Origin: Owenia fusiformis
Taxonomy: Eukaryota > Annelida > Polychaeta > Sabellida > Oweniidae
NCBI GenBank assembly: GCA_903813345.2
Contig: CAIIXF020000005.1
Location: forward strand, 18,231,375 to 18,295,374
Length of the DNA: 64,000 nt
Direction: 5' to 3'
Below are positions 898 to 22,574 of the stretch, one piece after another. A model generated the notes under the pieces. The model was not told the origin of the DNA. It saw only the letters and a list, made by a program, of their open reading frames with translations, and searched no databases. How positions within the stretch are numbered: the stretch's first letter is position 1; every line of letters begins with the position of its first letter. The position numbers and the translations under genes are program-made.

Positions 898-943
898 GCA
901 GAGTGTAGTTTAACTAGACTCTGCACGCAGGGTAATCGTACAT
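898..943 (+). repeat. Fragment of the ACTCTGCACGCAGGGT repeat
   Basis: GCAGAGTGTAGTTTAACTAG then ACTCTGCACGCAGGGT. It is an imperfect palindrome, matching the ends of the repeats near 51950 and 55500. It lies in the region 520-1200 before SDR copy 1, which otherwise holds only paralogous flank. Confidence 0.5.
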
Positions 944-1108
944 GTAAACTGCAGTGTAAAATGTAAATCACCTCGATCTTCCCCAAATATAGAGCCTCCG
1001 ATGGTTGGCCTATATTGGCAGAACTCAGGCATATTTTATGTCATGGTGACATAACCTCTAAACATATTAGTATGCTGTTGTCTTATTCATTGTTAGTGAG
1101 AAGATCAA

Positions 1109-1114
1109 GATAAG
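1109..1114 (+). promoter_or_regulatory. Conserved GATA-type motif upstream of SDR genes
   Basis: AGATAA in the context TCAAGATAAGG lies about 100-130 bp before the ATG and is kept in all three copies (also 9439-9444 and 19369-19374). The flank is conserved by recent duplication, so conservation alone is weak evidence for a GATA-factor site. Confidence 0.25.
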
Positions 1115-1214
1115 GCCAACCAAGTTAGAAGTAGACTTGACATACATGTATGTTGACGGATTTAGTATTTTTCTGATAACCATACACTAAAGTCAAAGCT
1201 CTGATCATAAGACT

Positions 1215-3542
1215 ATGTCTGCCATATTCTTCAATATGCAACCAGTTTTGGATGAATCATCCACAAAAGAGAGATTTAAAGGTAAGCATTTGTTAAGATT
1301 CTATGTTTCCTCATTTGTTCATTTAATTATTCAGTTATTTGTCACATGGAATTTATTATCAAAATTATTTGATTTTGTACATTGTCTTAGGATGATTAAT
1401 GAAATATGAATCTACTATAGCTAGGATTCTTCTTTTGTATTATTCTCCAAAGTAATATATTATAGGAAAAGTTGTAATAGTGACGGGGGGCGCTTCTGGA
1501 ATAGGAAAAGAAACAGCAAAACGGTTCTTAAATGACGGTGCCACTGTTGCTGTATTTGACATAAATGATGATGCCATTCGAAACACAGAACTTGAATTTA
1601 AACAAGCAGGTTTTTCGCCAATGTTCTACAGTGTTGATGTTTCTAACAAAGCAGAGTGTCTATCAGGAGTGGGGAAGGTGGCTGATGCAAATGGGGGAGT
1701 TGTACACTATCTAGTCAATGCTGCAGTCTACTTTTGCTTTGAAGGTAGTGCAGACTGTACATGTACTTTTTTAAAATGGAACTTTGCTTTATGATTCATC
1801 TTTTAATATTATTGTACAACCTTCGCTGAACATGAGAAATGAGAAAATAACTTTTTGTTTTATTACAGTTGATAAAAGATCCAGACAGGATATCCTCATA
1901 GAGGTTGTCTATGGAAGAAAACTGTTTTTGTGATTTAATAAATATAATAACCAACTTGAAGAACATGTTCAAGAAGAAGCAAATGACTATCCATTATGAT
2001 ATTGAATGATTTTGACATGGATATAACAGCCACTCATCACTGATTTTGAACGAGTATCATTATACAATATGGACATATACAGGGAGGTTCTTACAAATGG
2101 GACACCTTGTATCATTCTTAAAAACATTTAGGATCACGTGGATAAGCCATATGTAATACAGTTGATCCTGCTAAGTGGAACACCTCTATAAGTGGAACAC
2201 CTCGCAAGTGGAATGCTTTTTCAAAGTCCACTTACACAGGTTCTACTGTACAATTAAAAAAAAATGAATATTTAAATTCTAATGTAGTTGAAATTTATAC
2301 AATTTCCAATTATGAAATCGTAATTTACTAAAATCAAATTTTACTCTAATTTAAAATCTGTGAAAAATGGGTGTCAAAATATCCAAAAATGATAAGTTTC
2401 AATCAAACAGTCTATATTTTACAGTATTTATGCCCCCTTAAGTGATTTGTTACCATTCATGAGTTATTCTATCCTCAATCCTTTATTCTTGTTCTTGTTT
2501 TGTCATGCTGATGTGTTATCAGGCTTCATAATTGTAATGCATATATGGTATTCCAGCTCTTCAAGCTGAGCATGAACATTGGGCTAAGACAATGGCAGTG
2601 AATGTAGAAGGTGTGGCCAATATGGTGCAATCATGCTATCCTTATATGGTCAAAGGTAGGTTGATCACATGTCTCTGTTAAGTATATTGGTACACATGCC
2701 CAGAACAAGCTATCACTAATATCTTAAAGATTATATTGGAATGATGATTACGAGTGTTAACTATTTAAATTCATTTTAGCTGGTGGGAAAGTGTGTGGAA
2801 TCGTCAATTTTGCCAGTTTATCAGCTTATCGAGTACAGAAAAACAGATGGACATATTCTTCTACAAAGGGAGCAATTGTTTCATTAACAAAATGCATGGC
2901 ACTTGACCTATCAGAACAGGGCATTCGGGTCAACTCAATCAGTCCAGGTGCAATCTGGACTCCTGAGGTAAATGATGATCATGTTCAAGATTCAAATATT
3001 TAGTAAAATGATGAGAAAAATAAAAAATAAGGAAAATTCATGTAATTATTTTTTAGTGTAAAATGTATACAACAGTTCCCCAGAAAGATGGACAGTACAT
3101 GCTATCTAGTGTTTTTTGCCTAAGTGTGGACAATCAATCCAGTCTATGACAATGTCAACCAAAATATATGAGACTGATCATCACTTCCAATTTAAATAGG
3201 AAAATCTTAAATAGGAAATGCCTTCCAAACGTGATCCAAGAAACCAAATTCAAATCATGATCCAGATTAGTTTCTCTATATGCCCCTTTTATCTGATAAA
3301 GTGAGAAATCCCTTTGAAAAGTGTACTTTTTAAAAGTTGCGAAGTGTTTTGGGCCTGCTGACAAGAACAAGGCTCAAGAAACTTTTGGAAAAGCCCACAT
3401 GCTTCGTAGGATTGGTGAAGGTGCAGAAGTAGCAGCAGCAGTAGCATTCCTCTGCAGTAAAGATGCCTCATTCATCACAGCAACAGATTTGTGTGTAGAT
3501 GGGGGATACACTTCAATGTCACCAGAGGGATTTGGAGAGTGA
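1215..3542 (+). pseudogene. SDR oxidoreductase copy 1, last acceptor broken
   Basis: Classical short-chain dehydrogenase/reductase, probably NAD(H)-linked; the substrate cannot be read. Exons are 1215-1281, 1466-1744, 2557-2655, 2780-2967 and (by homology) 3336-3542; intact copies would make 279 residues. Exon 2 carries the TGGASGIG nucleotide loop and an acidic residue after strand 2 (VFDIND, favouring NAD). Exon 3 has the VNVEG Asn, and exon 4 has FASLSAYR, the YSSTK catalytic Tyr/Lys and [11 protein letters not shown]. The usual NNAG motif reads VNAAV. The base pair before exon 5 is AA instead of AG. The next AG, one base on, shifts the frame and gives a stop at 3430-3432, removing the C-terminal 69 codons including CVDGGY. 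All else matches copy 3 closely. It is likely a recent pseudogene, or it makes a truncated product. Confidence 0.85.
2159..2248 (+). mobile_element. 90-bp pogo-like MITE in SDR copy 1 intron 2
   Basis: TA-flanked ends read CAGTTGATCCTGC and ...ACAGGTTCTACTG, with repeated AAGTGGAACACC units. It is shared with copy 3 (20433-20521) and absent from copy 2. Confidence 0.6.
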
Positions 3543-3718
3543 ACATACAAATAATTGAGCAACCAAGGGAGACACAATTTGTCCCCAGAATTTGGTTGTT
3601 CTACAGTGGAATTAGACAAAGGAATGTCTATCAAATAAGAAACAGAGGAATAAGACAGCTAGACAGCTCACATAAAGAACAAATACCATTATTATGATGT
3701 TTTGCTTGGTACAGATGA

Positions 3719-3724
3719 AATAAA
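3719..3724 (+). promoter_or_regulatory. AATAAA poly(A) signal, SDR copy 1
   Basis: AATAAA lies 177 bp after the SDR copy 1 stop, in a flank shared by all copies (context GATGAAATAAATAG). The same context follows copy 2, near 15085-15090. In copy 3 it is pushed about 0.7 kb away by an insertion. Confidence 0.5.
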
Positions 3725-4099
3725 TAGTTCTTTCATAAATAGGGGGAAATTAGTTTATATATTTGTGTTTGTATATAAAATCATTTCTTCTTTGAATTTT
3801 TGAAGAAACAAAAAAAGATGACCTAAAATCCCCTATTAGGAAAGTCAATATACTTTTAAATTTTGACCTTATGTTTTGAGAGTACATGACATTAAGTTAG
3901 TGTACTCAAAAAGTGAGCAAATGGAATTAATGAAAAACTATTGGAAGATAATGACAATAAATGTTTTGTTTTAAAATAAAGAACAGTACTGCAAGATTTA
4001 GTACGGAAGTACTTTTCCCCCTTTTCATTCTTACCTCCTGTGTAACAATAGTTCAGTTTATCATTTACTATTATTATAATTTCCACAAGCTTAGTATCA

Positions 4100-4442
4100 A
4101 AAATCATAAAATAGCGAGTAAAGGCCACCATTTTTCAAGATGGCTGCCATGTGCTTCTTTAATACCTACATTTTTAGCTTTATTAATGTCCTATATAATT
4201 TTTTTTACATTTAAAACATATTGCTATTACAGTTTTACATATTGTACCTAAATACTTATAAAATCAGCACTAAAATGGCTGCCATTTTTAAATGAGTGGC
4301 CATTTTGAAAATCACAACAAAATCGGGCCAACGGTATTTGATTCATTGCCAGACGGAAGGACGGACGGACGGACATATGTACAGACAGACAGACGGACGA
4401 AAGTGTTCCCTATATCCCTCCAAACTTCGTTCATGGGATAAT
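4100..4442 (+). mobile_element. pearl-like element after SDR copy 1
   Basis: It has the same insertion point and body as the element at 120-520. Its microsatellite is GGAC/AGAC (4352-4400), followed by CTCCAAACTTCGTTCATGGGATAATT; one base of the tail hairpin is lost. Confidence 0.7.
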
Positions 4443-6539
4443 TATGTGGACCATATAAATGGGCTAGGGGGTAACATTTATGTAACCATGGCAGCTCAAA
4501 TTGTGGGTGGACTAGTTTATTAATATCACACAATTTGTGCACATCGAACTCCACCAAAGCGTCTGTTGGAATAATGAGATTTTAAGTGATCTGCACATTC
4601 AACCATTGAGGCCTCACATTTTTCTTTTATTTGATGACATATTTGAATTCAGTACATGATCTTCTACGAGAATTTTCTTATGTTATTCAATTAGCAAGGT
4701 TTTTTATCTTTTCTGAAAAAGTTAAATAGGATCAATCTTCACTGACATATTGTTTAAATCAAATAATGTTAAATATCTTTAAAAGTTCATTTACTCTTTC
4801 AAGGATTACAATTTTAAGGTAAAATCACTATCTGCTTGTCAACAAGATCAACTACTTGATTCTTGCCAATGTGAATTTACATGAGTAGATTTAGATTTAG
4901 ATGTGCATGTGCAAGTGCCAAAGGGAAAGGACCTAAATTGTAACATAACAATCACATTCCTATCAGCTCCAATATACTCAACTCCAACTCAATGTACCAG
5001 TCATACAACCAATCAAGCAAACAATCAACCAAGCAACCAACTAATCTACCAATCAACCAACTGACAAAACAAACATCCATATTCTGTCACTCTGGGAATA
5101 AATCAAGCAACTGACGTTGTTTTGTACATTTTACGTTTATTGACAGATAAAAGTTCAAGATTTATTTAATATCTAGTAGAAATCGGATTCATAGAAAACA
5201 ATCATCGATATCCTGCAAATCAGTCAGACAATAAATCAAGCAACTAGCATCATCGTACATGTAAACTGCAAGTGGAGCCAGTTTTAGGCAATAAAACTCT
5301 TGAATTGCACTTGCTATATATAAAGCACAATTTTTTGACATAAGTGTCATTAATACATATATTTTTGATATCTAACAAAGTGGTGTTGAAAACTGGCCCC
5401 AGTTGATAATGAGGCCCAGTCCTCGAAAATTTTCAATCTTCAAAAGACCCCCTGCAGAACAGTTCTAGAGTAATAAAGCCCATATTAACAGAATGTTACA
5501 ATAACATGACTATCTTGAAAATAAGAAGGCTTAAATTTTTTCTTATGCCTACTTCTTAAGATATTAACGCTTGAATTTTGGAAATTCCCCATTGGCTGCC
5601 ATTATAAATGCCTATCAATATCGCTTTACTAAAGTGTAAATCTAACGAAGTGGTGTTGAAAAGTGGCCCTAGTTGAAAATAACAGGCCTCAAAAATTTTG
5701 CTAATTTACATTGAGCTCTATGTTAATTTATCAATCTTCAAAAGACCCTCTGCAGAACAGTTTTAGAGTAATAATGCCCATTCTCCTTGAATGTTACAAT
5801 AACATCATTATGTTCAAAATAAGAAGGGTGGAAGTTTTTTCTTTTACCTTGTTCCAAAGATTTGGCTTTGAATTTTTGAAAATACCCATTGGCTGCCATT
5901 ATAAACCGCTATCAGTATGGCTTTACTAAAGTGTTTTTTTCTCAAAAAGTCCACTGTGGAATTTTCTAATATTGCAGATTTCTATAGTTATTATATTGAT
6001 TTAAAAAAATCAAACAGGTACATTTCTGAAAATTCCTTCTTTTTAATATATTCAGCCATTAAGTTAAAGATTGATAAATTAACATGAGGCACAATATAGT
6101 TTTTTTTATAGTTTTTGACGGCTTAATATATTAAAAATAAAAAAATTGAAATAGTAATAGTAAAAGGTAATAAGGAGAATGGTGATTTTTACTCTCAAAC
6201 TGTTCTGCAGGGAGTCCGTTGAAGATTGATAAATTAACATGGGGTTGAATATATAGTTTTTTTAAATAATTATACCGGTTAAATAAATCAAAAATAAGAA
6301 ATTTTTAGAAATGTACCTGTTTGATTTTTTTTAAATCACTACATTAACTATAGAAATCTGCAATATTAGAAAATTTCACAGTAGACTTTTTGAGAAAAGA
6401 ACACTTTAGCAGAGCCATATTGATAGCCGTTTATAAAGGCAGCCAATGGGGAATTTCCAAAATTCAAACCCCGATATCTTTAGAAGTAGGTAAAAGGAAA
6501 AAATCTAACCCTTCTTACTTTGAAGATAATCATGTTATA

Positions 6540-8375
6540 TTAACATTTATTTATTTATTTATTTCATGATAATATAACAATGGAATGTACAAAGCATGTG
6601 CACTCGACACCCTTAGTAATTGGGCGTATCAGTGCATATATCAAAAATTATTGCAGAGCAATCACAAAACGTATAATATATAACAGTATAACATACATTA
6701 TCTAAATTGTTTAGATGCAATACAGAAACTCTGAAGTCTGGATATAAATAATTAATTTAAATGGAATGTGATCTTACGAGGGTTGTCCCAGAAGTAATGC
6801 ACTATATGCTCTAACTTTATCAATAATTGATATTTTTCCATGAAATTTTCAGTAAATTTTCCTAAGAGACATTTTGATTATTCTACAAATTTTCAAGTTG
6901 ACTGATAAAACTATAGCGATGTTATAATAAAATCAAGTTGGTGTGTTTGGGTAGGGCGGGGCAGGTTATACAGTCACGTCAAAAGGGATAAAAAAATTGA
7001 AAATACGAAATAATTAATCAACAAATAACATTTTGTGTAGCTATAAGAAGTTGGCTCTAAAATACATTATAAGATACTAAATTACTATGAGCAAATCTTA
7101 GATTTAATTGATGTATTTTGCACAGTGTCCCATTTAATATTTTCTCAAAATATTGCCCTTTGCATGTTATGTACTTTTGATGCCTGTCAGGTCAAACACT
7201 CTTGGCAATTTCTTCCACTGTGACTTGTGGAGTTTTTGTCTCCCATGTTTGGAGTTGTCATTCAGGGTCCAGTCATCTCTTTTAAATCTCTTCTGCCACC
7301 TCATAATTGTAGTTCTATCTGGTTTATACTTCTTATATAATCTTTTCATGGTGGCATAAGTTTTGCGTGGCTTTGAGTCCAAGTGAAGTACGAAATTAGG
7401 CCATCAAACGCAAGTCCTTCTGTTATCAGGTGAGAATTGCAGCCATTTTTGCAATTTCTTGACCGTGACTGTATTAGAATTTGTGACCATTGAACTGTTG
7501 TATTATGACATCACAGTGCTAAATGCCATTATTTGTACTTGGTTAACATCATGCTGAATAAATTAAACAATTTCCCAAACATTTTGATCATTTAAAAGAA
7601 AGAAATATTAATAAAATAACACTTTGGATCTTTTCATTATTAGAAAAATTGGTACCTGCCCTGCCCACCCCTACCCTCATGTTGCTATAGCAACCATAGT
7701 AAGACTAAATACTAATGTTTGATGCTGAAACTTCAGGATAGTATATATAAAGCTTCAATTGTTATATACACAAAAATTCAGCTGAATTGAAGTATATTAA
7801 AGAAAGTTAGAGCATATAGTGCATTACTTCTGGGACAACCCTCGTATATAGTATTTCCATTCATCTTTTCCAAAAGGTCCTTTTTAATGTTGTGTTTAAA
7901 AGAATTCAAAGTTTTACATGTTCGAAATACAATTGGCAAAGAATTCCATAAAATAGCACCAGAATATGTCACTGATCTTTTTGTCAATTCAGTTTTTATT
8001 TTGCTGGGGCTAAATTATGAAACTGTCTTGTAGTACGATTACCAACATTATGATTGTGCATGTATGTAAAGTAGTTTTTGAAAAGATAAGCAGGAAAATT
8101 TGATGGTTCCTTGACACAATTATACATAAATTTTGATTTCTCTAACCTGTGAATGTCAAAAATTGTTAAGATTTTCATTTCCCTAAATAATGGTACACTA
8201 GATTGTTGATAATCTGCATTACAAATCAGTCTTACAACTTTTTTCTGAAGATTAAGTAATGGTGTAAGTAATGATTTGTTGGCATTACCCCATATGATGT
8301 TGCAATAAGAAATATGTGAATACACAAGTGAATAGTAAATGTCTAACAATGCATGTCTTGATAGTTTATTTCTTA
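6540..8375 (-). mobile_element. Non-LTR retrotransposon 3' fragment, interrupted
   Basis: A TTTA repeat at 6545-6566 is the TAAA-type tail of a minus-strand element. ORF fragments at 7996-8349 (SLVYSHISYCNIIWG...LQKKVVRLIC) and 7778-7987 (ITYSGAILWNSLP-like) match the C-terminal part of jockey/CR1-type reverse transcriptase proteins. The catalytic core is missing, so this is a 5'-truncated dead copy. It sits in the right arm of the 4-kb foldback element and is itself split by a mariner-like element. Confidence 0.75.
6777..7844 (-). mobile_element. Tc1/mariner-like element, degenerate
   Basis: Near-perfect 42-bp terminal inverted repeats (CGAGGGTTGTCCCAGAAGTA...) are flanked by TA on both sides. 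The minus strand at 7167-7382 encodes a mariner-type helix-turn-helix fragment (DRTTIMRWQKRFKRDDW, then a GRQK for GRPK). The catalytic domain is absent. It is inserted in the non-LTR fragment. Confidence 0.8.
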
Positions 8376-9569
8376 CATTTTTACTCTAAAACTGTTCTGC
8401 AGGAGATCTTTTGAAGATTGATAGATTAACATGGGGCTCAATATAGTTTTTTTATAACTTTAACGGTTAAATGTATCAAAAATAAGAAATTTTTAGAAAT
8501 GTACCTGTTTGATTTTCTTAAAACCACTATATTAACTATAGAAATCTCCAATATTAGAAAAGTCCACAAAGGACACTTTAGCAAAGCCATATTGATATGC
8601 GTTTATGATGGCAGCCAATGGGGAATATCCAAAATTCAAAGGCCAATATCTTTGGAAGTAGATAAAAGAAAAAAATTAACCCCTCTTATTTTGAAGATAA
8701 TCATGTTATTGTAACTTGCCAGGAGGATGGTGATTTTTACCCTAAAACTGTTCTGCAGGGGGTCTTTTGAAGATTAATGAATTAACATGGGGCTCAATAT
8801 AGTTTTTTTTACAATTCTAACGATTAAATACATCAAAAATAAGATTTTTTTAAATCACTATATTAACTATAGAAATCTGCAATATTAGAAAATTTCACAG
8901 TGGACTTTTTGAAAAAAGGACATTTTAGTAAAGCCACATTAATAGCCGTTTATAATGGCAGCCAATGGGATTTTTCCAAAATTCAAACGTCAATATCTTT
9001 GGAACTAGGTAAAAGAAAAAAAAAAATTTAACCATTCTCATTTTGAAGATAATCATGTTATTGTAATATTCTAGGAGAATGGGCATTATTACTCTAAAAC
9101 TGTTCTGCAGGGGGTCTTTTGAAGATTGTTAAATTAACATAGAGCTCAATGTAAATGAGCTAAATTTTTGAGGCCTGTTATTTTCAACTAGGGCCACTTT
9201 TCAACACCACTTCGTTAGATTTCAAAAATATATGTATCAATGATACTTATGTAAAAAAAAATGGTGCTCTATATATAGCAAGTGCAATTGAACAGCTAAC
9301 TGACCCCACTATGCAGTGTAAAATGTAAACCACCTCATTCTTGCCAAAATATAGAGCCTCCCAAGGTCGGCCTTTACAGGCAGAACATAACCTCTAAACA
9401 TATGCTGTTGTGTTATTCATTGTTAGTGAGAACATCAAGATAAGGCTAACCAAGTTAGAAGTTAGAAGAATGTAGATTGGAATAGTCGCAACTGATTCTG
9501 AGTTTTTCTGCTTAAAGAATAGTACTTGACATATGTTGACGGATTTAGTATTTTTCTGATCAGAAGATT

Positions 9570-12500
9570 ATGTCTGCCAAGAAATTGTTCAATATGCAAC
9601 CAGTTTTGGATGAATCATCCACAAAAGAGAGATTTAAAGGTAAGCATTAGTTGGATCCTTAGCTCGTTTGTCGATTTAATTATCCAGTTATTTGTCACAT
9701 GGGATTTTATTATCTAAAAAATTATTGAGTTTCCTACATTGTCTTACAGGGGTGGATCTGGGAACCAACAAGGGGGGGGGGCCAAATTTAAGGTCAGAAA
9801 AAATTTTTAGGCCCATAAAACCCAAAAGTGGGCTCAAATTTTGAAACTTTGAGGCCTATTTTTTCAAAATTTGGCCTGAATTAAAAAGGCCTAAAAGGCC
9901 CAGTAATGACCAAAAAGGCCCACTTTTTGAGGCCTTAAGGCCTTATCTGGGCGCACCCAAGGGAGGGGGGCAGACCCCAAGCCCCCCCCCAGCAGATCTG
10001 CCAGTGGTCTTAGGTGACTATAGTTGTATATGAAATATGAATCCATTATAGTTAAGATTCTTCTATACTGCATTATTCTCCAAAATAATATATTGTAGGA
10101 AAGGTTGTAATAGTGACAGGGGGTGCTTCTGGAATAGGAAAAGAAACAGCAAGACGGTTCTTGAATGACGGTGCCACTGTTGCTATATTTGACATAAATG
10201 ATGATGCCATTCGAAAAACAGAACTTGAATTTAAACAAGCAGGTTTTTCGCCAATGTTCTACAGCGTTGATGTTTCTAACAAAGCAGAGTGTCTCTCAGG
10301 AGTGGGGAAGGTGGCTGATGCAAATGGGGGAGTTGTACACTATCTAGTCAATTCTGCAGTCTACTTTTGCTTTGAAGGTAGTACATGTACCAGGCCCCTA
10401 ACCAGGGGGGTTGGGAGGAGGATTTCAAAATCATGCTGTTTTTCACCATTCTGAGCACTTTTCAAGTGATTTTGGCTATTTTTGAGCCAAAGTTCTCAGA
10501 AGTGACCCCCCTGGAATTTTTAAAAAAGAGACTCCCTTGGCAAATCCTGGCTACAGGCCTGTGTACTTTTTTAAAATGGAACTGTGCTTAGCATAATTCA
10601 GCTTTCATATTGTATAACCCTTACTGATCAAGAGAAATAAGAAAATGACTTAAGTCATTATGATATTAAATGAATTTGCATGTTATTTTACATGGATATG
10701 ACAGACATTCATCACTGATTTTAAATGAGTATCAATGAATGAGTATTATTATGCAATATGGACATATACAGGGACGATCTTACAAAAAACACCTTGTGTC
10801 ATTCTTAAAAACATCTAGGATCACATAGATAACCGATATGTAATACCCAAAACTAAAACTCAATTAACATAATTAATTTAAAAAACAATGGGAATTTAGT
10901 ATGAATATTTTAATTTCCAATTGTGATGTCATATTTCAATAAACACAGATTTCACTCATTAGCAATGAAGAAATCTACGAAAAATGGGTGTCAAAATATC
11001 TAAGAATGAGAAAGTTTGAAAGTTTCAATCAAGCAGTCCATATTTTACAGTATTAATGCCCCCTTAAGTGATTTGTTACCATTCATGAGTTATTCCATCC
11101 TCAATCCTCTATTCTTGTTCTTGTTTTGGCATGCTGATGTGTTATCAGGCTTCATAATTGTAATGCATATATGGTATTCCAGCTCTTCAAGCTGAGCATG
11201 AACATTGGGCCAAAACAATGGCAGTGAATGTAGAAGGTGTGGCCAATATGGTGCAATCATGCTATCCTTATATGGTTAAAGGTAGGTTGATCATATGCTT
11301 CCTGGTCATCTCAACACCAAGTCAACTCAACCCAGTAAAACTCAACCCTAGTAAAACTCAACCCCAAGTCATCTCAACCCCTGTAAAACTCAACCCCAAG
11401 TCAACTCAACCCTGTAAAACTCAACCCCAGTAAAACTCAACCCCTATATATTTTAAGTTGATTTTCATATGTTTGTTTATAATTAAAAAAAAGTTTTTAT
11501 AATTTTGTGTCAATTGTTGATTATCATTCTAAGACCTGCCTTGTATACTTAATGATGAGCACAATCTCTAAGCTCTAAAGAATTAAGAGTCATTTAATCA
11601 TATTCCACATGTCATCTTATTTCAACGCCTTCTTGGTACCATTTAAATCTTGCTAATACGTTTGGTTTGTTGTAATGCCTCTCAGGTTGACACTATTGAT
11701 CATTAATGATTTCATTAATACGTTTATAAAAAAAACATTGTTAATTGCCAAGATTTTATTTTCCTAAAATTTAATTTTAAAATATGTTAAACTGTTTGTG
11801 AATATATATATCTCGAATCATTATCCAAGATGAAAATAAACAGTGTCTAATATTATTATACCTCTGTGAAATATTCTAATTCTAACAAAGCATTGTTTAA
11901 AATATGCAAAATGCTAAATTATCAAAGTTAATGAACTAGAGAACTAGACATTACAGAAATGAATGGGGTTGAGTTTTACTGGGGTTGAGTTTTACAGGGT
12001 TGAGTTGACTTGGGGTTGAGTTTTACCGGGGTTGAGTTTTACTGGGGTTGAGTTGTACTGGGTTGAGTTGACTTGGGGTTGAGATGACCTGTCACCGATC
12101 ATATCACATGTCTGTAAAGTATATTGGTGCACATGCCCAAAACAGGCTATCACTAAAAGATTTAAGACCAAGAATTACAATGCATTGTTTGCTGAATCAT
12201 ACCATGAACATGTTATTTCCAAACCTTTGCAGTTGGAATGCATGCAGTTGGAACGCAAAGTTTAGGAAACAACACCTGAGTGGAATGACGGAGCTACAAT
12301 GCATTAAGTCTTGGGCTTAAATTCTTTTCACACATTGCAAATTTGTTTCTTTAAAATCATCTAAAAGGAACGAAATCACGAAAAGAACACATTTTCAATG
12401 AAATATTTTGCAAAGGTCAAGTTGACAAGTCATCAAATCCAATGTGAAAAATCCATTCATCACCATGACAACTGTTTAACTAGTGACCTTGCATGTGTGA

Positions 12501-14896
12501 TTGATATTTCACACACTGTTCATTGTGTGAATACTCTGTACGGATTGGCTGGAATCGGACACACCTTGCCTAGCTATGTGTGAATAATATTCCAAATACG
12601 TCTTAAAGATTATATTGGAATAATGATTACAAGTGTTTAACTAATTAAATTCATTTTAGCTGGTGGAAAAGAGTGTGGAATCGTCAACATGGCCAGTGTA
12701 TCTGCCCATAGAGCCCAGACAAACAGATGGACATATTCTACTTCTAAGGGAGCAATTGTTTCATTAACAAAATGCATGGCACTTGATCTATTAGAACAGG
12801 GCATTCGGGTCAACTCAATCAGTCCAGGTGCAATCTGGACTCCTGAGGTAAATGATAATCATGTTCAAGATTTAAAAATATTAAGTAGAATCACAGGGAA
12901 TCGTATGGAGGGTCGGGCACAACCCTCCCCAACCTCTAAAGACTTCTCTTTTAATAAGGGAACCCGAAAAGTGAAATGTCTAGAAAAATAAAAAAAAATA
13001 TTTTAAGCTAAAAATAAGTCGAAATCATTAGTATAAGGCACGCACACATTCAACATATAGAATTAGTGATTGAAAAAAATAATGGAAGCAATCCGTTGAC
13101 TAGTTGCTCAGAAATGTAGACAGATTCTTCGAAATGATGGAAATCGACGTTTTTACGAATTTTATCCGCGTTAAATGAAATACATTTCAGTCTATTTCTT
13201 TCTTATATACACTCACCATTAAAAATTGTTACTTCACGAGGTACTTCCTTTACGTGGCTTCCCTATGGTTACACGTTTATCACGAATTGCATCTCAGAAC
13301 GACTGCCACTCGTGGATATGTGTCGAAATAAAACTTTTCTGAAATATTTTGAACAAATATTGCCGGCAACTCGATGTGAATAATATCTGCATTTTCATTG
13401 GCTCAATCCCACTTGCCTGACATCTATAAATAAATATGAAATATAAGTGAACGTAATGTGCAAATTACCTAAAATTGCCTGGACGTGATTTTCACCTATT
13501 TCAAGACACACAAAAATATATTTTGTATTATATAAAATCAAAGTTTCTTTTTAACTAAGCGCCGAATATGTTATTCACGTTTCACATGTCTCCTTTACAT
13601 TTATCATTAATTGTTATAACGATTGTGAATGAGCCAATGAAAATGCAGATCTTCATTCATATCTGGTTGCCGGCCATTATTTATTTACAATTTTCGACAG
13701 AAGTTTCGTTTCGACACAAATCCACGTGTGGCAGTCGTTCTGAGATGTAATTCGTGATAAACGTGTAACCATAGGGAAGCCACGTAAAGGAAGTACCTCG
13801 TGAAGTAACAATTTTTAATGGTGAGTGTATATAAGAAAGAAATAGACTGAAATGTATTTCATTTAACGCGGATAAAATTCGTAAAAACGTCGATTTCCAC
13901 CATTTCGAAGAATCTGTCTACATTTCTGAGCAACTAGTCAACGGATTGCTTCCATTATTTTTTTCATTTGCTAATTCTATATGTTGAATGTGTATCTAGC
14001 TTATAGGAATGATTCGACTTATATTTAGTATACAATATTTTTTTTTATTTTTCTACACAGGTCAGTTTTCGAGAGCCCTTTTTAAAGAGAAGTAGCCTTA
14101 GGAGGTTGGGGAGGGTTCTGCCCAACCCTCCATGCAATCCCCTGTGAGTAGAATGATGAGAAAAATAAAGACATTAATTCAATTCTTGCCAGAAAGATGG
14201 ACATGCTCTCTATTGTTTTTAGTCTAATTGTGGACGTCAAGCAAATCCAATATCTTGAGTCTATGACAACTATGAAAATGTTCCCAAAATAAATGAGAGT
14301 GATGAACACTTCCAATTTACTAGGGGAGGGGGGGGGGGCTCAAAATTTTACTCTGAACTTTAGGAAATGCCTTCCAATAGACTTCTAAGTGCAATTTTAG
14401 AACATGCAGGAGTTTTACTAGAATTTTTCACAAAAGGCTAAATAAATGAAAACAACAGGCAAAATTAATGGAAATCATACATTTAACATGGAAAAGTTGA
14501 AAAGTCCCAAACAACAGGAGATTTTGTGAAAACAACCGGTGAAAATCACCTGTTCCCTGCAGCTAATGAAACCCCTGACATGGATGATCCAAGAAATCAA
14601 AATCAAATTATGATCCAACAAATAGTTTCTCTATATTCCCCTAATGGCTAATAAAGTGAGAAATCCCTTTGAAAATATACTTTTTATAGGTTGCAAAGTA
14701 TTATGGGTTTGCTGACAAGAAAAAGGCTCAGGAATATTTTGGAAAAGCCCACATACTTCGTAGGATTGGTGAAGGTGCAGAAGTAGCAGCAGCAGTAGCA
14801 TTTCTCTGCAGTAAAGATGCCTCATTCATAACAGCAACAGATTTGTGTGTAGATGGGGGATACACTTCAATGTCACCAGAGAGATTTGGAGAGTGA
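9570..14896 (+). CDS. SDR oxidoreductase copy 2 (280 aa, intact)
   Basis: Exons 9570-9639, 10099-10377, 11183-11281, 12660-12847 and 14690-14896 join in phase to give 280 residues. The start ATG follows the paralogous upstream sequence, and the N-terminus [15 protein letters not shown] differs from copies 1 and 3 by three bases. Motifs are [29 protein letters not shown] and the YSTSK catalytic pair; NNAG is replaced by VNSAV. It is the most diverged copy, with NMASVSAH against NFASLSAY and a C-terminal SPERFGE. All five introns and flanks are intact, but they carry about eight insertions missing from the other copies. The gene spans 5.3 kb, against 2.3 kb for its paralogues. The enzyme class is sure; the substrate is unknown. 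Confidence 0.9.
9747..10006. mobile_element. hAT-like MITE in SDR copy 2 intron 1
   Basis: The ends are CAGGGGTGGATCTG and the inverse of CACTGGCAGATCTG (11/14 match). They are flanked by GTCTTA repeats, or 7 of 8 bases if read as an 8-bp duplication. The interior is rich in AGGCC/GGCCT palindromes. The site is empty in copies 1 and 3. Confidence 0.65.
10391..10561. mobile_element. 171-bp MITE in SDR copy 2 intron 2
   Basis: The ends are CAGGCCCCTAACCAGG and inverted CAGGCCTGTAGCCAGG, with a TGTAC duplication on each side (10386-10390, 10562-10566). It is absent from copies 1 and 3. A relative lies at 35941-36106 in a WDR11 intron. Confidence 0.75.
11297..12096. mobile_element. 800-bp element with tandem GGGGTTGAGT ends, SDR copy 2 intron 3
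   Basis: An 8-bp duplication, GATCATAT (11289-11296, 12097-12104), flanks it. Both ends carry arrays of AACTCAACCCC-type repeats as an inverted pair (11309-11445 and 11967-12085), with GGTCATCTCAAC near each tip. The interior is AT-rich and non-coding. The 8-bp duplication suggests hAT-type transposition. The site is empty in copies 1 and 3. Confidence 0.75.
12157..12600. mobile_element. ~440-bp insertion in SDR copy 2 intron 3
   Basis: Copies 1 and 3 run straight from CTATCACTAA to TCTTAAAGATT, whereas copy 2 has 440 bp between. Part of it is an inverted repeat (12158-12190 against 12292-12322). No clear ends or target duplication were seen, and the family is not recognised. Confidence 0.5.
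12892..14146. mobile_element. 1,255-bp foldback element in SDR copy 2 intron 4
   Basis: Two inverted arms of about 519 bp (12892-13410 and 13628-14146) surround a spacer of about 217 bp. The tips read CACAGGGAATCGTATGGAGG and inverted CACAGGGGATTGCATGGAGG. A perfect 8-bp duplication AGTAGAAT flanks it (12884-12891, 14147-14154), and copies 1 and 3 have the empty site. No transposase ORF is present. The 8-bp duplication points to hAT-type mobilisation. Confidence 0.85.
14373..14590. other. ~215-bp insertion in SDR copy 2 intron 4
   Basis: Relative to copies 1 and 3 there is extra sequence after GCCTTCCAA, with repeated AAAACAAC and CAACAGG words. No ends or duplication are clear. Confidence 0.35.
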
Positions 14897-15270
14897 ACAT
14901 ACAAATAATTGAGCAACCAAGGGAGAGGGTAAAAGTAGACACAATTTGTCCCAAGAATTTGGTTGTTCTACAGTGGGATTAGACAAAGGAATGTCTATCA
15001 AATAAGGAACAGAAGAATAAGACAGCTAGAGGAACTCTTTCAAATAAGGAACAAATGTCATTATGACGTTTTGCTTGGTACAGATGAAATAAATAGTTCT
15101 TTCATAAATAGGGGGAATTCGGGGAAATTATTTGATATACATGTATATGTTTTTGTATATAAAATTATTTCTTCTTTGAATTTTTGAAGAAACAAAAAGA
15201 TGACCTAAAATCCCCTATTAGGAAAGTCTGACAATATACTTTTCAATTTTGACCTTTTGGTATATGAGTA

Positions 15271-16515
15271 CAGTAAAACCTGTATATCTGAACACCTGGC
15301 TAATCCGAACACCTTCCAATTTGAACACTTTTTTTCGGTCCCATTTTTTCCTTCCATTGACTCCCATGTTAAAAAAACCTTGAAATCTGAACACCTCCTA
15401 ATTTGAACAGTGAACAACCAGATTTGAAAAAGTGACCTGTCTAATCTGAACATTTTTATCAGAAATCAAATGTCTGGACATTTCAATTAAAGCCACATAT
15501 TGAGTCAATGTTATAGTTGTTATTTATCTTTACATATATACAAATGCAATCAAAAAACCAATTGTCCTACGACATCCCTAATTTGTGGAAAACAACAGAA
15601 TGTTTTCGAAAGGTGTGAATACAGGAGTTAATTGGTTTATCATATTAGAAAAGAACTGAATGTTTTATTTTTGGATTAAGAGAAAGGTGTGAAGATTATT
15701 GATTTATCATTATTGGAAATTACCTGGATGTTTTTGATTTGGATTAAGAGAAAGGTGAGAGTCTGGTAGATAATTGGTTTATCCTTATTGTAAATTAACT
15801 GCATGTTTTTGATTTGGATTATGAACAGCTCTTAACTGTTTTATATCCCATGGGTCTGTTATGATAGTTTATATTCAATCAGTAAATGTTTTATAATCAC
15901 AAAGACAACACAAACGCCATTTGCAGACACAATCATATCACGAGCGAGAAGGAGAAAAAATCCAACTTCGTAATATTCGCATACATCTGACATCCTGAAT
16001 GCCCTTGATATTTTGAAGGATTATACATCATCTCACTCATGAAAAATTATTTTTACTTGAAGAGGATATCTACTCAAATATTGCTAATGCTAAAAGTGCC
16101 AAGAAACAAACAACAATGAAGGACTTTTTCAAGCAAAAGTAAAGCAGTGCTATATACCGGTAACCATAATATGGGATAAGCCATATGATAAGCATAAAAT
16201 TTCGTACGAGACTTATCATATACTTTTACAGTGTATTACAAAGTTTTTGCCAAACTATAAGAGTTATTTTTACTAAAATGATGAAATTGTTCAAAATATA
16301 AATAAAACATAGCATATAGGCTATAGGCCTATTGTAGAATTAACTCATCAACAACATGTTTTGTTTTCTGACTTAGTATTAAGTGTTCAATATAGTGCAC
16401 TGAACAATGAAAATCCCCCCCCCCCCGACCAACAAAATCCTCGAAATTTGAACACCTGCCAATTTGAACGCTTTTGGCTGGTCCCATGGGTGTTCGGATT
16501 AGACAGGTTTTACTG
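15271..16515 (+). mobile_element. pogo-like element after SDR copy 2
   Basis: The ends CAGTAAAACCTGTATATC and inverted CAGTAAAACCTGTCTAATC are flanked by TA; copies 1 and 3 have the empty site GAGTACATGAC. TCTGAACACC-type repeats fill both ends. At 16043-16141 the plus strand encodes the last residues of a pogo/Tigger-type transposase, ending KKQTTMKDFFKQK and a stop. The rest of the transposase is gone. Confidence 0.8.
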
Positions 16516-16724
16516 TACATGACATTTAGTGAGTGAACTCAATGAGTGAGCAAATGGAATAAATAAAAAACTACTAGAAGATATATATACTAAATAAATG
16601 TCTTGTTTTTAAAATAAAGAACAGTACTGCAAAATTTTCCACCTTTTCATTCTCACCTCCTGTGTAACAATTGTTATGTTAATCATTTACTATTATCAAT
16701 AATTTCCACAAGCTTAGTATCGAA

Positions 16725-17103
16725 AATCATAAAATAGCGAGTAAAGGCTACCATTTTTCAAGATGGCTGCCATGTGCTTCTTTAATACCTACATTTTTAG
16801 CTCTATTAATGTCCTATATAATTTTTTTACATTTAAAACATATTGCTATTACAGTTTTTCATATTGTACCTAAATAACTGTAAAATCGGCACTAAAATGG
16901 CCGCCATTTTTAAATGAGCGGCCATTTTGAAAATCACTTTCGAGCAGAACTTCTACTCCCATAAGGTATATGTGTACACAATATGAACAAAATCAGGCCA
17001 ACGGTATTTGATTTATTGCCCGGCCGGACAGACACGTATGCACGTACGGATGGACAGAGGCGTTCCCTATATCCCTCTGAACTTCGTTCAATGGGATAAT
17101 TAT
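16725..17103 (+). mobile_element. pearl-like element after SDR copy 2
   Basis: This is the third orthologous insertion after the shared CTTAGTATC boundary, with a short GGAC/ACGT-type run (17025-17060) and the tail CTGAACTTCGTTCAATGGGATAATT. Confidence 0.7.
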
Positions 17104-17866
17104 GTGGACCATATAAATGGGCTAGGGGGTTACAGTAATGTAACCCTGGCAGCCCAAATTGTGGTTGGGCTAGTTTCTTAATATCACACAATTTGTGCAC
17201 ATCAAACTCCCCCAAACTGCATCTGTTGGAATAATGAAATTTTAAGTGATCTGCACATTCAACCATTGAGGCTCCACATTTTCTTTTATTTGATGACATA
17301 TTTGAATTCAGTACATGATCTTCTACTAGGATTTTGATTTATACATTTATCTTCACTGACATATTGTTCAATTAAATAATGTTAAATATCTTTAAAAATT
17401 CATTTACTCTTTCAAGGATTACAATTTAAGGTAAAATCACTATCTGCTTGTTAACAAGATCAACTGCTTGATTCATGCCAATAGAGATTCACATGAGTGG
17501 ATTTAGATTTAGATATGTACCAAGTGCCAAAGGGAAAGGACCTTAATTGTTACAGAACAATCATGTTCCTATTAGGGTTAGGAATTTGGTTTCATTTTAT
17601 GCCTCAAAATGCCCAACTCAATGTACCAGTCATACAACCAATCAAGCAAACAACCAACCAAGCATCCAAATAATCTACCAATAAACCAACTGACAAAACA
17701 AACATCCATATTCTGTCAATCACCCTGGCAATAAATCAAGCAACTAACATTGTATTTTACATTGTACGTTAATTGACAGATAAAACTTTCAGATTTGTTT
17801 AATATATTAAATCGCAATCATAGAAAACAATCATCGATATCCTGTAAATCACTCAGACAACCAGAA

Positions 17867-19184
17867 CAACGGCAACGCCAAAGCGTAGCGAATCCCATCG
17901 AACAGAAATGGCTTACAAACGAATAGCAAATATCATAAAACAACATACCAGAAAGGCCACCATTTTCAAAATGGTTGCTCACTAGCCAAGTTGTCATCAG
18001 AAGAAATAATATGCTTTTAAGTAGCCACCTCTAAAATTTTTGAAAAATCATACACATACTTGTAAAATAACACACATAAAAATGGTGGCCATTTTTCAAA
18101 ATGGCCGACTACTCTCAAAAGTTTAATTAGACAATGTGCCATGCTTAAAGCATTCACATATCAAATATGAACAAAATCGCTCCACTACTTTTTGAGTTAT
18201 AGTAAAATACGTTAAAATGGCGGCCATTTTTCAAAATGGCCACCTTCTACCAAAAGTGTCATTAGAAATAGACAGTGTGCCATGCTTATTGTATTCACAT
18301 ACCAAATATGAACAAAATCGCTCTACTACTTTTCGAGTTATAGTAAAATACGTTAGAATGGCGGCCATTTTTCAAAATGGCCACCTTCTACCAAAAGTGT
18401 CATAGGACAGTGTGCCATGCTTATAGTATTCACATACCAAATATGAACAAAATCGCTCTACTACTTTTCGAATTATAGTAAAATACGTTAGAATGGCGGC
18501 CATTTTTCAAAATTTTTTTCAAAATGGCCACCTTCTACCCAAAGTGTCATAGGACAGTGTGCCATGCTTATAGTATTCACATACCAAATATGAACAAAAT
18601 CACTCCACTACTTTTCTAGTTATAGCAAAATACGTTAAAATGGCGGCCATTTTTCCAAATTTTTTTCAAAATGGCCGCCTTCTACCAAAAGTGTCTTTAG
18701 ACAGTGTGCAATGCTTATAATATTCACATACCAAATATGAACAAAATCGCTCCACTATTTTTTGAGTTACAGCAAAAATCGTAAAATGACCAGTAAAGGC
18801 CGCCATTTATCAAGATGGCTGCCATGTGCTTCTTTAACATCTACATTTGTAGCATTATTAATGTCCTTTATAATTTTTTTACATTTAAAACATATTGCTA
18901 TTACAGTTTTACATATTGCACCTAAATTACTGTAAAATCGGCACTAAAATGGCCGCCATTTTGAAATGAGCAGCCATTTTGAAAATCGGCTTTCGAGCAG
19001 AACTTCTACTCCCATAGGGTATATGTGTACAAAATATGAACAAAATCGGGCCAACGGTATTTGAGTTATTGCCCGGACGGACGGACGGACAGACGGACGG
19101 ACGGATGTACGTACGGACGTACGTACGGACGGACGGACGGAGGCGTTCCCTATATCCCTCCGAACTTCGTTCGATGGGATAATA
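17867..19184 (+). mobile_element. Full-length pearl-like element with tandem core
   Basis: The head is ACGGCAACGCCAAAGC...ATCCCATCGAAC. Next come about five tandem core units of 135-146 bp (17930-18780), each with the hairpin GGCCATTTT-TC-AAAATGGCC and ACCAAATATGAACAAAATCG. A unique body, a GGAC/GTAC microsatellite (19073-19140), and the tail hairpin CGAACTTCGTTCG with GATGGGATAAT follow. The head's ATCCCATCGAAC is the inverted complement of the tail, as short terminal inverted repeats. No coding sequence is present, so it is non-autonomous. Confidence 0.75.
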
Positions 19185-19474
19185 AATCAAGCAACTAAAC
19201 ATCGTAAATGTAAACTGCAGTGTAAAATGCAAATCACCTCGATCTTCCCCAAATATAGAGCCTCGCATGGTTGGCCTATATTGGCAGAACTCAGGCATAT
19301 TTTATGTCATGGTGACATAACCTCTAAACATATGCTGTTGTCTTATTCATTGTTAGTGAGAAGATCAAGATAAGGCCAACCAAGTAAGAAGTAGACTTGA
19401 CATACATGTATGTTGACGGATTTAGTATTTTTCTGATAACCATACACTAAAGTCAAAGCTCTGATCATAAGACT

Positions 19475-21854
19475 ATGTCTGCCATATTCTTCAATATGCA
19501 ACCAGTTTTGGATGAATCATCCACAAAAGAGAGATTTAAAGGTAAGCATTTGTTAAGATTCTATGTTTCCTCATTTGTTCATTTAATTATTCAGTTATTT
19601 GTCACATGGAATTTATTATCAAAATTATTTGATTTTGTACATTGTCTTAGGATGATTCATGAAATATGAATCTACTATAGCTAGGATTCTTCTTTTACAT
19701 TATTCTCCAAAGTAATATATTATAGGAAAAGTTGTAATAGTGACAGGGGGCGCTTCTGGAATAGGAAAAGAAACAGCAAAACGGTTTTTGAATGACGGTG
19801 CCACTGTTGCTGTATTTGACATAAATGATGATGCCATTCGAAACACAGAACTTGAATTTAAACAAGCAGGTTTTTCGCCAATGTTCTACAGTGTTGATGT
19901 TTCTAACAAAGCAGAGTGTCTATCAGGAGTGGGGAAGGTGGCTGATGCAAATGGGGGAGTTGTACACTATCTAGTCAATGCTGCAGTCTACTTTTGCTTT
20001 GAAGGTAGTGCAGACTGTACATGTACTTTTTTAAAATGGAACTGTGCTTTATGATTCACCTTTTAATATTATTGTACAACCTTCGCTGAACAAGAGAAAT
20101 GAGAAAATGACTTTTTGTTTTATTACAGTTGATAAAGGATCCAGACAGGATATCCTAATAGAGGTTGTCTATGGAAGAAAACTGTTTTTGTGATTTAATA
20201 AATATAATAACCAACTTGAAGAACATGTTCAAGAAGAAGCAAATGACTATTCATTATGATATTGAATGATTTTGACATGGATATAACAGCCACTCATCAC
20301 TGATTTTGAATGAGTATCAATGAATGAGTATCATTATACAATATGGACATATACAGGGAGGTTCTTACAAATGGGACACCTTGTATCATTCTTAAAAACA
20401 TTTAGGATCACGTGAATAACCCATATGTAATACAGTAGAACCTGCCAAGTCAAACACCTCTATAAGTGGAACACCTCGCAAGTGGAACGCTTTTCAAAGT
20501 CCACTTACACAGGTTCTACTGTACAATTAAAAAAAATAATGAATATTTAAATTCTAATGTAGTTGAAGTTTATACAATTTCCAATTATGATATCGTAATT
20601 TACTAAAAACAAATTTTACTTGTAACGAATGAAGAAATCTGTGAAAAATGGGTGTCAAAATATCCAAAAATGATAAGTTTCAATCAAACAGTCTATATTT
20701 TACAGTATTTATGCCCCCTTAAGTGATTTGTTACCATTCATGAGTTATTCCATCCTCAATCCTCTATTCTTGTTCTTGTTTTGTCATGCTGATGTGTTAT
20801 CAGGCTTCATAATTGTAATGCATATATCGGTATTCCAGCTCTTCAAGCTGAGCATGAACATTGGGCTAAGACAATGGCAGTGAATGTAGAAGGTGTGGCC
20901 AATATGGTGCAATCATGTTATCCTTATATGGTCAAAGGTAGGTTGATCACACGTCTCTGTTAAGTATATTGGTGCACATGCCCAGAACAAGCTATCACTA
21001 ATATCTTAAAGATTATATTGGAATGATGATTCCAAGTGTTAACTATTTAAATTCATTTTAGCTGGTGGGAAAGAGTGTGGAATCGTCAATTTTGCCAGTT
21101 TATCAGCTTATCGAGTACAGAAAAATAGATGGACATATTCTTCTACAAAGGGAGCAATTGTTTCATTAACAAAATGCATGGCACTTGACCTGTCAGAACA
21201 GGGCATAAGAGTCAACTCAATCAGTCCAGGTGCAATCTGGACTCCTGAGGTAAATGATAATCATGTTCAAGATTCAAATATTGAGTAAAATGATGAGAAA
21301 AATAAAAATAAGGAAAATTCATGTAATAATTTTTTAATGTAAAATTTATACAACAGTTCACCAGAAAGATGGACAGTACATGCTATCTATTGTTTTTAGC
21401 CTAAGTGTGGACAATCAATCCAGTCTATGACAACTATGACAATGTTACCCGAAATATATGAGACTGATCATCACTTCCAATCTAGTGGGGGGGGGCATTG
21501 TAAGACAATAAAGTATCTTAAATAGGAAATGCCTTCCAAACTTGATCTGAGAAACCAAATCAAATTCAAATCATGATCCAGATTAGTTTTCTCTATATGC
21601 CCCTATTACCTCATAAAGTACATGAATTTGAAGTGTACTTTTTAAAGGTTGCGAAGTGTTTTGGGCCTGCTGACAAGAACAAGGCTCAAGAAACTTTTGG
21701 AAAAGCCCACATGCTTCGTAGGATTGGTGAAGCTACAGAAGTAGCAGCAGCAGTAGCATTCCTCTGCAGTAAAGATGCCTCATTCATAACAGCAACAGAT
21801 TTGTGTGTAGATGGGGGATACACTTCAATGTCACCAGAGGGATTTGGAGAGTGA
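19475..21854 (+). CDS. SDR oxidoreductase copy 3 (279 aa, intact)
   Basis: Exons 19475-19541, 19726-20004, 20839-20937, 21062-21249 and 21648-21854 join cleanly, all with GT-AG, to give 279 residues. It carries [19 protein letters not shown] in place of [33 protein letters not shown] and a C-terminal [16 protein letters not shown]. It is almost identical to copy 1, including a shared 90-bp pogo-like MITE in intron 2, but keeps the AG before exon 5 (AAAG|GTTGCG). A 709-bp TA-flanked element sits 11 bp after the stop and separates the gene from its normal 3' flank and AATAAA signal. This copy lies at the downstream edge of the array, inside WDR11. Confidence 0.92.
20433..20521 (+). mobile_element. 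89-bp pogo-like MITE in SDR copy 3 intron 2
   Basis: It sits at the same site as the copy 1 MITE. Ends CAGTAGAACCTGCCA and ...AGGTTCTACTG are flanked by TA. Copy 2 has the empty site ATGTAATACCC. Confidence 0.6.
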
Positions 21855-21865
21855 ACATACAAATA

Positions 21866-22574
21866 CTGTAGGATATGTAATTATAACGGTATGAAAATAC
21901 AACGAAAACACTCTAAAATTCGAAATAACTAGAAGAAATATTACCGTCCATGGACCTGATTTTTATTAGGAATTATCGATCCCGCTAGTCCTGATTGAGC
22001 AGATTAATTTTTTCTCCAAAAAATGTACGTCTATAATTACCGTGCATAATTACCCTGATAAACGGCAAACCTACCCTAATTGCCTAACTTATGTACAGTG
22101 GGCTACACCTCTCATGATTTTGTGAATGTTGTGTGTGTGTTTTTGACTGAACTTTTTATGTTTTATTGTGTTATTCATTGTTGAATAAATTTCAGAATTT
22201 TATTTGATCGTTCTTCGTGTGTATTATGAACTTTGACCTCTGGTTGAAGCATTAATGATCGAAAAAGTTGATTTTGGTATGTTTTTTTGCGGTTCAACGG
22301 TGAATAAAGATACTAAATGGTAACAGGAAAACAAATAAGGTAAGTCGCGTCGATATTCAACTGATTATGAATCAATATTATGTTGATTATGCTGTATGGT
22401 AAAGCAATTGACTTCCGTTTTCATTTTTTCTGAACTCCATTTTTATCCCGATTTTTTCAAACAACAATAATTAACTTAGTTGAAAGTCAGAACCGAGAAT
22501 AAAATATAACGACAAAGAAAATTTCGTTATTTTCTGTTATAATTAAATACACATTATAATTACATCTTGTACAG
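21866..22574. mobile_element. 709-bp TA-flanked element after SDR copy 3
   Basis: Ends CTGTAGGATATGTAATTATA and inverted CTGTACAAGATGTAATTATA are flanked by TA. Copy 1 has the empty site ACAAATAATTGAG. There is no ORF. It is probably a non-autonomous Tc1/mariner-type element and starts 11 bp after the SDR stop codon. Confidence 0.75.

Follow-up and report, generated by a model that had tools for sequence, protein, structure and literature searches.

Transposable-element insertions and paralogous empty sites in a tandem SDR gene array of Owenia fusiformis

The 64-kb stretch of Owenia fusiformis DNA analysed here (the window) contains three SDR gene copies in tandem, and a preliminary description took the middle one, copy 2, to be a transposon trap. 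This raises the question of whether the introns of copy 2 attract or tolerate more insertions than those of its neighbours, or whether the pattern is that of everyday transposon traffic in clustered genes.

The tandem array and its gene copies

All units of the array lie on the plus strand, and exon positions were set by motif or, in unit 1, by homology. The part of unit 1 common to unit 3 spans 935-4098, with exons at 1215-1281, 1466-1744, 2557-2655, 2780-2967 and 3336-3542. Unit 2 spans 9312-17860 (exons 9570-9639, 10099-10377, 11183-11281, 12660-12847 and 14690-14896), and unit 3 spans 19201-23131 (exons 19475-19541, 19726-20004, 20839-20937, 21062-21249 and 21648-21854). Unit 0 is represented by its 3' flank (1-762), and its gene would be upstream of the window. 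Among the paper titles listed in a literature search, none was on this SDR locus, and tRNA and Rfam scans (gathering threshold) of the window gave no matches.

Copy 2 has an open frame of 280 amino acids, with GT-AG boundaries in all four introns. The dN/dS was 0.28-0.33 for copy 2 versus 0.09 for the pair of copies 1 and 3, making the copy 2 protein the faster changing one. The idea that copy 2 is a decaying gene was unsupported; its reading frame is intact and constrained. Copy 1 was also considered as a clear pseudogene, since its intron 4 ends in AA; this was not concluded, as an AG at 3343 preserves the frame.

Extra segments in and beside copy 2

Alignment of the copies confirmed the preliminary description: each of the eight listed segments occurs in copy 2 or next to it, and none is found at the matching place in copies 1 and 3. 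Within the unit, the gaps between copy 2 and copy 1 were 274, 170, 811, 442, 1265, 204 and 1247 bp, and a 4-kb segment lies upstream. The ends given in the preliminary description were nearly exact to the base: those of C, D, E, G and I were the same here, and that of A shifted from 5271-9310 to 5271-9311. For F (12159-12600, previously 12157-12600) and H (14381-14584, previously about 14373-14590), the ends are alignment breakpoints only.

Segment A (5271-9311), a foldback element of 4,041 bp between units 1 and 2, has ends AGTGGRGYCAGTT, a TGCA target duplication and long arms in inverted orientation, among them 5638-6011, which pairs with 8843-9222 at 90.8%. Judged by eye, its minus-strand frames resemble the terminal part of a protein from a non-LTR retrotransposon; a Pfam search of two frames of A returned no families. 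Segment C (9747-10006), a hAT-like sequence of 260 bp in intron 1 of copy 2, has the end CAGGGGTGGATCTGG and a 6-bp duplication, GTCTTA, and its inner part is similar to 42957-43063 (73%). Segment D (10391-10561), a hAT-like MITE of 171 bp, lies 13 bp past the donor site of intron 2, with paired ends CAGGCCCCTAACCAGG and CAGGCCTGTAGCCAGG and a 5-bp duplication, TGTAC.

Two segments lie in intron 3. Segment E (11297-12096) is a foldback element flanked on both sides by an exact 8-bp duplication, GATCATAT; its inverted repeats GGTCATCTCAACMCCAAGTCAACTC begin 7 bp from either end and are made of AACTCAACCC repeats, and its inverted arms pair 11304-11444 with 11965-12089. An alternative reading, with a 9-bp duplication (7/9 matching) and slightly shifted ends, is possible for E. 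Segment F, of 442 bp, is absent in copies 1 and 3 and is palindromic over its first ~170 bp; searches in copy 2 found no clear target duplication and no paired outer ends for it.

In intron 4, segment G (12892-14146) is a 1,255-bp element with ends CACAGGG and an exact 8-bp duplication, AGTAGAAT, on both sides; its inverted arms, about 520 bp long, are 89.4% alike. Segment H, of 204 bp, is also absent in copies 1 and 3, and a search for a target duplication and paired outer ends found none. Located 3' of copy 2 is segment I (15271-16515), a pogo-like element of 1,245 bp with ends CAGTAAAACCTGT and a TA duplication, with one TA at the empty site. Its terminal inverted repeats match at 16 of 16 bp (15268-15283 and 16503-16518, including the flanking TA), with TACAGTAAAACCTG at both ends.

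In the empty-site test, the element and one duplication were removed, and 60 flanking bases were compared with copies 1 and 3. The matches to copy 1 and copy 3, respectively, were 45 and 51 for A, 46 and 46 for C, 52 and 53 for D, 52 and 53 for E, 49 and 48 for G, and 49 and 50 for I. For A, the empty site is where the flank of unit 1 (to 5270) would run into the next unit, as in copy 3. A, D, E, G and I combine paired ends and a target duplication with a site that is empty in copies 1 and 3 alike, and insertion into the copy 2 lineage is well supported for these five of the eight segments; C is probably an insertion as well, whereas F and H may be either insertions or sequences lost elsewhere. 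The preliminary description credited the three-way alignment with giving ends and target duplications for families that a single copy would leave undefined. This fits C best, whereas A, E, G and I show paired ends within one copy.

The eight segments spare the exons, as first described, with none overlapping an exon and the gene left open. The P value for exon avoidance was 0.115 with 7 interior events, 0.046 with 10, and 0.034 with 11 (adding A, K, L and P, of which the last three are described below). Exon avoidance was not retained as evidence of selection; in any case, insertions that hit exons are expected to be selected against. No intact transposase was seen inside A to I or the elements L, P and Q when frames were read by eye, with six segments also run through Pfam. 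Exact-pattern scans for relatives in a genome set and a viral contig set gave no matches in either.

Insertions on other copies and the excess in copy 2

The other copies hold insertions that had been missed. Element P (21866-22574), a Tc1/mariner-like sequence of 709 bp with a TA duplication and inverted ends, begins 11 bp past the stop codon of copy 3 and is absent in copies 1 and 2; once P is excised, 58 of 60 flanking bases agree with copy 2 and 48 of 60 with copy 1. Element L, a pogo-like MITE, lies in copy 1 (2159-2248, 90 bp) with TA flanks and ends TACAGTARAACCTG like those of I (2 mismatches at the left end), and is found in copy 3 at 20433-20521 (89 bp) and not in copy 2. Copies 1 and 3 also have in common a segment of about 134 bp, K, with flanks AAATGACT that fit insertion or loss. 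In the spacer between copies 2 and 3 lies Q (17861-19183, plus strand), a pearl/HINE-like element with five ~147-bp central repeats and a CGGA microsatellite.

Because copies 1 and 3 hold insertions too (P, and the shared L) and the P value for an excess in copy 2 ranged from 0.026 to 0.35 over 11 countings, 4 of them below 0.05, the trap proposed at the outset is not established. That copy 2 is a true trap, its introns attracting or tolerating more insertions through, for example, open germ-line chromatin or relaxed constraint, seems unlikely to us, though it has the raw count in its favor (six to eight in copy 2 versus two to four on the other lineages). All 11 countings leaned toward a trap, the lowest P value (0.026) being obtained with Q assigned to copy 2; against this, 7 of the 11 were at or above 0.07, four of the countings giving 0.071-0.136 and the five-interior and shown-only sets 0.13-0.35. 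All 11 countings were picked after the data had been seen, and the outcome hinges on counting K and placing Q.

These values take copy 2 to represent about 43% of the tree under an assumed clock; the protein of copy 2 has changed faster, and copies 1 and 3 belong in part to a single lineage. With a share of 35%, two sets gave P values of 0.026 and 0.025, and with 50%, 0.172 and 0.145; with so few events, a true 2- to 3-fold excess in copy 2 could go undetected. The trap is further opposed by the pogo-like ends found in both lineages (I and L) and by the intact and constrained frame of copy 2. Overall, the pattern resembles the routine coming and going of transposons in a gene cluster, its main use being to read off transposon ends and the sequence of duplications, and the array reveals no new mechanism.

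Relationships among the units and a likely history

The suggestion that copies 1 and 3 are recent duplicates or were homogenised by gene conversion held in part: the two are alike, at 3% divergence on the left, but the similarity is uneven (8% on the right), and the flank of unit 0 pairs with copy 2. Noncoding divergence between copies 1 and 3 was 2.95% to the left and 7.74% to the right of position 2968 (block permutation, p = 0.0019), and the share of changes falling on copies 1 and 3 was 0.178 versus 0.474 (p = 0.0004), with this breakpoint chosen after inspection of the data. A change-point test in which changes within 6 bp were collapsed gave p = 0.039 and placed the break at 3335 instead of 2968. 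The longest run of sites identical in copies 1 and 3 was 44 (p = 5e-5).

The unit 0 flank differs by 5.2% from unit 2 and by 9.8% from unit 1, and units 1 and 2 differ by 9.3% (692 columns). In 100 columns, all four two-versus-two sites group units 0 and 2 against units 1 and 3. Over those columns, copy 1 differs from unit 0 by 8, from unit 2 by 8 and from copy 3 by 11; copy 3 differs by 16 from both unit 0 and unit 2, partly through a poor left edge. The closeness of the unit 0 flank to unit 2 hints at a block duplication, (0,2)(1,3), on the basis of one flank and four sites.

The account that we favor, and hold to be reasonably probable as a whole, comprises an array of at least four units, a block duplication, elements landing in both unit types at broadly similar rates, and conversion in the left part. 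A tandem array, probably of at least four SDR units, would have grown in an animal genome rich in transposons, likely starting from two early unit types and then, by a block duplication, producing units 0 and 2 of one type and units 1 and 3 of the other. Unrelated elements would have landed in the introns and spacers of both types. Six to eight segments would be seen in copy 2 because no other member of its type lies wholly within the window and because its unshared history is the longest there; a modestly raised insertion rate in copy 2 would be compatible with this. The clean look of copies 1 and 3 would be due in part to their close kinship, and conversion in the left 2 kb would have homogenised them further. 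With unit 0 read, insertions common to several units could show in which order the duplications took place.

A stronger version, which we consider rather unlikely, is a two-unit higher-order repeat, (0,2)(1,3), with transposon load differing between unit types: one type would be conversion-homogenised and lean, and the other would gather intron insertions while its protein diverges.

Heterology limits gene conversion, and insertions in copy 2 could have blocked conversion with its neighbours, so that copy 2 diverged and copies 1 and 3 stayed alike. A noncoding tract in which copies 1 and 2 are alike (copy 1 positions 2393-2556; 7 of 164 versus 150 of 812 sites, p = 6e-7), followed by exon 3, terminates near insertion E, which speaks for this view. 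However, copy 2-specific changes were no denser near insertions (p = 0.38, 0.47 and 0.30 within 30, 60 and 100 bp, respectively), leaving insertions as conversion barriers unsupported and this explanation improbable. Least probable is that the segments were ancestral to the array and then deleted from the lineage of copies 1 and 3: F and H yielded no target duplication or paired outer ends, and K shows that length differences run the opposite way too, but paired ends and a duplication mark each of A, D, E, G and I, copies 1 and 3 carry just one target at each of these sites, and each loss would require near-exact removal of an element and one duplication.

Likeness to known elements

From their ends alone, we take I, L and P to be pogo-like or other Tc1/mariner elements; they resemble Tc1/mariner MITEs in their TA duplications and inverted ends. 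C and D, which we presume to be hAT-like, start with CAG; the paired ends of D begin with CAG at 10391 and 10561, and D has a relative in the window at about 35941-36106, the far end of which is just partly alike. An 8-bp duplication, as expected of hAT MITEs, was not observed; the duplications seen were of 5 bp (TGTAC) in D and 6 bp (GTCTTA) in C. A 9-bp difference adjoins the insertion site of D, which is classed as hAT-like only. A, E and G share long inverted arms with foldback or long-inverted-repeat elements, but their duplications (4, 8 and 8 bp) and ends differ from one another, and they are therefore not one family.

The phrase related-empty-site analysis occurs in papers on MITEs or Tc1-like elements (e.g., PMC3626606, PMC3422177). 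The logic of filled versus empty homologous sites is the same here, except that tandem paralogues, all within a single 64-kb window, supply the empty sites. The array is a compact example of paralogues serving as empty-site controls: the termini and target duplications of several element families are fixed within one window, and it can be seen which insertions are common to which gene copies.

According to PMC7492417, pearl, an element of oysters, has up to six ~160-bp repeats, Cg_HINE has mostly 4-nt microsatellites, and HINE (non-autonomous Helentrons) are characterised by inverted repeats in subterminal position together with a palindrome at the 3' end. Q resembles them in its central repeats and its 4-nt microsatellite, which are frequent and not strictly defining traits. 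A second copy of Q lies in the window at about 40965-41930.

The SDR array and its genes

Self-comparison of the window, whose DNA appears to be of animal type with a GC content of 34% by base counts, revealed three tandem units of a short-chain dehydrogenase (SDR) gene (unit 1 at about 935-5231, unit 2 at 9312-17860 and unit 3 at 19201-23131) and, at 1-762, the 3' flank of one more unit (unit 0), whose gene would lie upstream of the window. The assignment to SDR was made because Pfam adh_short matched two exon segments (1.8e-16 and 7.4e-15) and solved SDRs matched the array gene (best E 8.6e-44). With exon limits that we placed from motifs, copies 1, 2 and 3 each have five exons encoding 279-280 aa. 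The copy 2 gene stays open as described earlier, with 280 aa and GT-AG in all four introns, and dN/dS was 0.33 for copy 2 against copy 1, 0.28 for copy 2 against copy 3 and 0.09 for copy 1 against copy 3. The copy 2 gene is intact and constrained. The irregular splice site belongs to copy 1, in which intron 4 ends in AA at 3334-3335 (AG in copies 2 and 3); an in-frame alternative AG at 3343 would yield 276 aa if used. In the unit 0-1 spacer, positions 801-934 have no match in the other units, and the last 33 bp are found again unchanged at 55478-55510 and in a less exact form at 51927-51958.

Insertions in copy 2 and the other units

Empty homologous sites are an established way of reading insertions. 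The preliminary description had listed eight segments in or beside copy 2 as missing from copies 1 and 3. Pairwise global alignments permitting long gaps, together with a three-way alignment omitting the seven interior segments, bore this out for all eight, and the ends proposed for six of them (A, C, D, E, G and I) fell within one base of those found here. The ends of the intronic segments F (12159-12600) and H (14381-14584) are known only as alignment breaks.

Segment A (5271-9311), between units 1 and 2, carries AGTGGRGYCAGTT as inverted ends and is flanked by a TGCA duplication. The left-hand unit 1 flank would continue directly into the next unit, and the same junction is found in copy 3, its last bases also in copy 1. 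Within introns, E (11297-12096) has an exact 8-bp duplication, GATCATAT, with inverted arms beginning 7 bp in from either end, and G (12892-14146) is bounded by an exact AGTAGAAT duplication, its arms spanning ~520 bp at 89.4%. I (15271-16515), 3' of copy 2, shows TA and pogo-like ends. The intronic D (10391-10561) combines hAT-like paired ends with a 5-bp duplication, and a relative lies at about 35941-36106; hAT elements as a rule make an 8-bp duplication. C (9747-10006), also intronic, is flanked by a 6-bp duplication, and a partial relative lies near 43,000. F begins with a palindromic part, and we found no clear duplication at its ends; at H we found neither. On this evidence, A, D, E, G and I are well supported as insertions, C is a probable one, and F and H may be either insertions or losses. 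The eight-segment observation is accurate, and the process behind the segments is ordinary.

Further segments in the array had been overlooked in the preliminary description. P (21866-22574), a Tc1/mariner-like element in copy 3, is flanked by TA; with P excised, the flanks agree with copy 2 at 58/60 positions and with copy 1 at 48/60, 13 bp being absent from copy 1 at this place. Common to copies 1 and 3 is L, a pogo-like MITE (2159-2248 in copy 1) with ends similar to those of I; against copy 2, the left junction of L is clean and the right one is eroded. K, of about 134 bp, is also common to both, and its flanks AAATGACT fit insertion and deletion alike. Q (17861-19183), in the copy 2-3 spacer, resembles pearl/HINE elements and has another copy at about 40965-41930; the comparison with HINE elements follows PMC7492417.

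Copy 2 as a proposed transposon trap

Across 1,960 noncoding columns, copy-unique changes amounted to 11.4% in copy 2, 2.4% in copy 1 and 2.0% in copy 3, giving copy 2 ~43% of the tree if a clock is assumed. We then calculated the chance (P) of at least copy 2's insertion share in 11 ways of counting. Segments C-I against K, L and P gave 7/10 (P 0.080), or 7/9 (0.038) with K left out; adding A and Q gave 8/12 (0.086), excluding Q 8/11 (0.046) and assigning Q to copy 2 9/12 (0.026). The better-supported interior segments gave 5/7 (0.128), 6/8 with A (0.071), 6/9 with Q (0.136) and 7/9 with Q assigned to copy 2 (0.038). A, D, G and I only, a set that predates the re-reading of E, gave 4/6 and 4/7 (0.222 and 0.349). 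The excess was below 0.05 in 4/11 countings but above it in 7/11, and the outcome hinges on K and Q; copy 2 may be a transposon trap, as first proposed, but this is not established. As for the avoidance of exons, coding sequence makes up 26.5% of the shared unit, which puts the chance of zero exon hits at 0.115 with 7 events, 0.046 with 10 events and 0.034 with 11 events.

Likeness of copies 1 and 3

Copies 1 and 3 had been taken for recent duplicates or homogenised sequences. This is partly supported, as their similarity is uneven along the unit: noncoding divergence was 2.95% left of 2968 and 7.74% to the right (block permutation p 0.0019). Across 2968, copies 1 and 3 accounted for a share of changes that rose from 0.178 to 0.474 (p 0.0004). 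The longest run of sites shared by copies 1 and 3 was 44 (p 5e-5), and a change-point test with changes collapsed within 6 bp placed a break at 3335 (p 0.039). The longest run shared by copies 2 and 3, of 4 sites, was not unusual (p 0.10). A run of 10 shared by copies 1 and 2 at 3303-3318 (p 5e-5) is a local difference of copy 3, which an alignment effect may explain.

In the 3' flank (692 columns), unit 0 differs by 5.2% from unit 2 and by 9.8% from unit 1, and all four informative sites in a 100-column four-way comparison group unit 0 with unit 2 and unit 1 with unit 3. In the same columns, where the alignment's left edge is poor, copy 1 shows 8 differences from each of units 0 and 2 and 11 from copy 3, and copy 3 shows 16 from each of units 0 and 2; these distances speak against a neat (0,2)(1,3) story. 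The history we prefer would begin with an old pair of unit types, followed by a block duplication and, later, by conversion of the left part between copies 1 and 3. At 4098 / 23131, copy 3 homology to the other units stops near the start of a short HINE-like fragment in units 1 and 2, a possible duplication breakpoint.

If insertions had blocked conversion in copy 2, copy 2-specific changes should be denser beside them; they were not (within 30 bp, 0.117 vs 0.110 with p 0.38; for distances of 60 and 100 bp, p 0.47 and 0.30), and this explanation is unsupported. Copies 1 and 2 are unusually alike at intronic 2393-2556 of copy 1 (copy 2 from about 11019), with 7/164 vs 150/812 positions differing (p 6e-7), through either conversion or constraint.

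Elsewhere in the window, a minus-strand open frame of 506 residues (29313-30830) by eye resembles a multi-pass transporter, a plus-strand frame of 702 residues (60438-62543) by eye resembles a Toll-like receptor, and 33150-33439 is a tandem array of about 12 copies of a 25-bp repeat.
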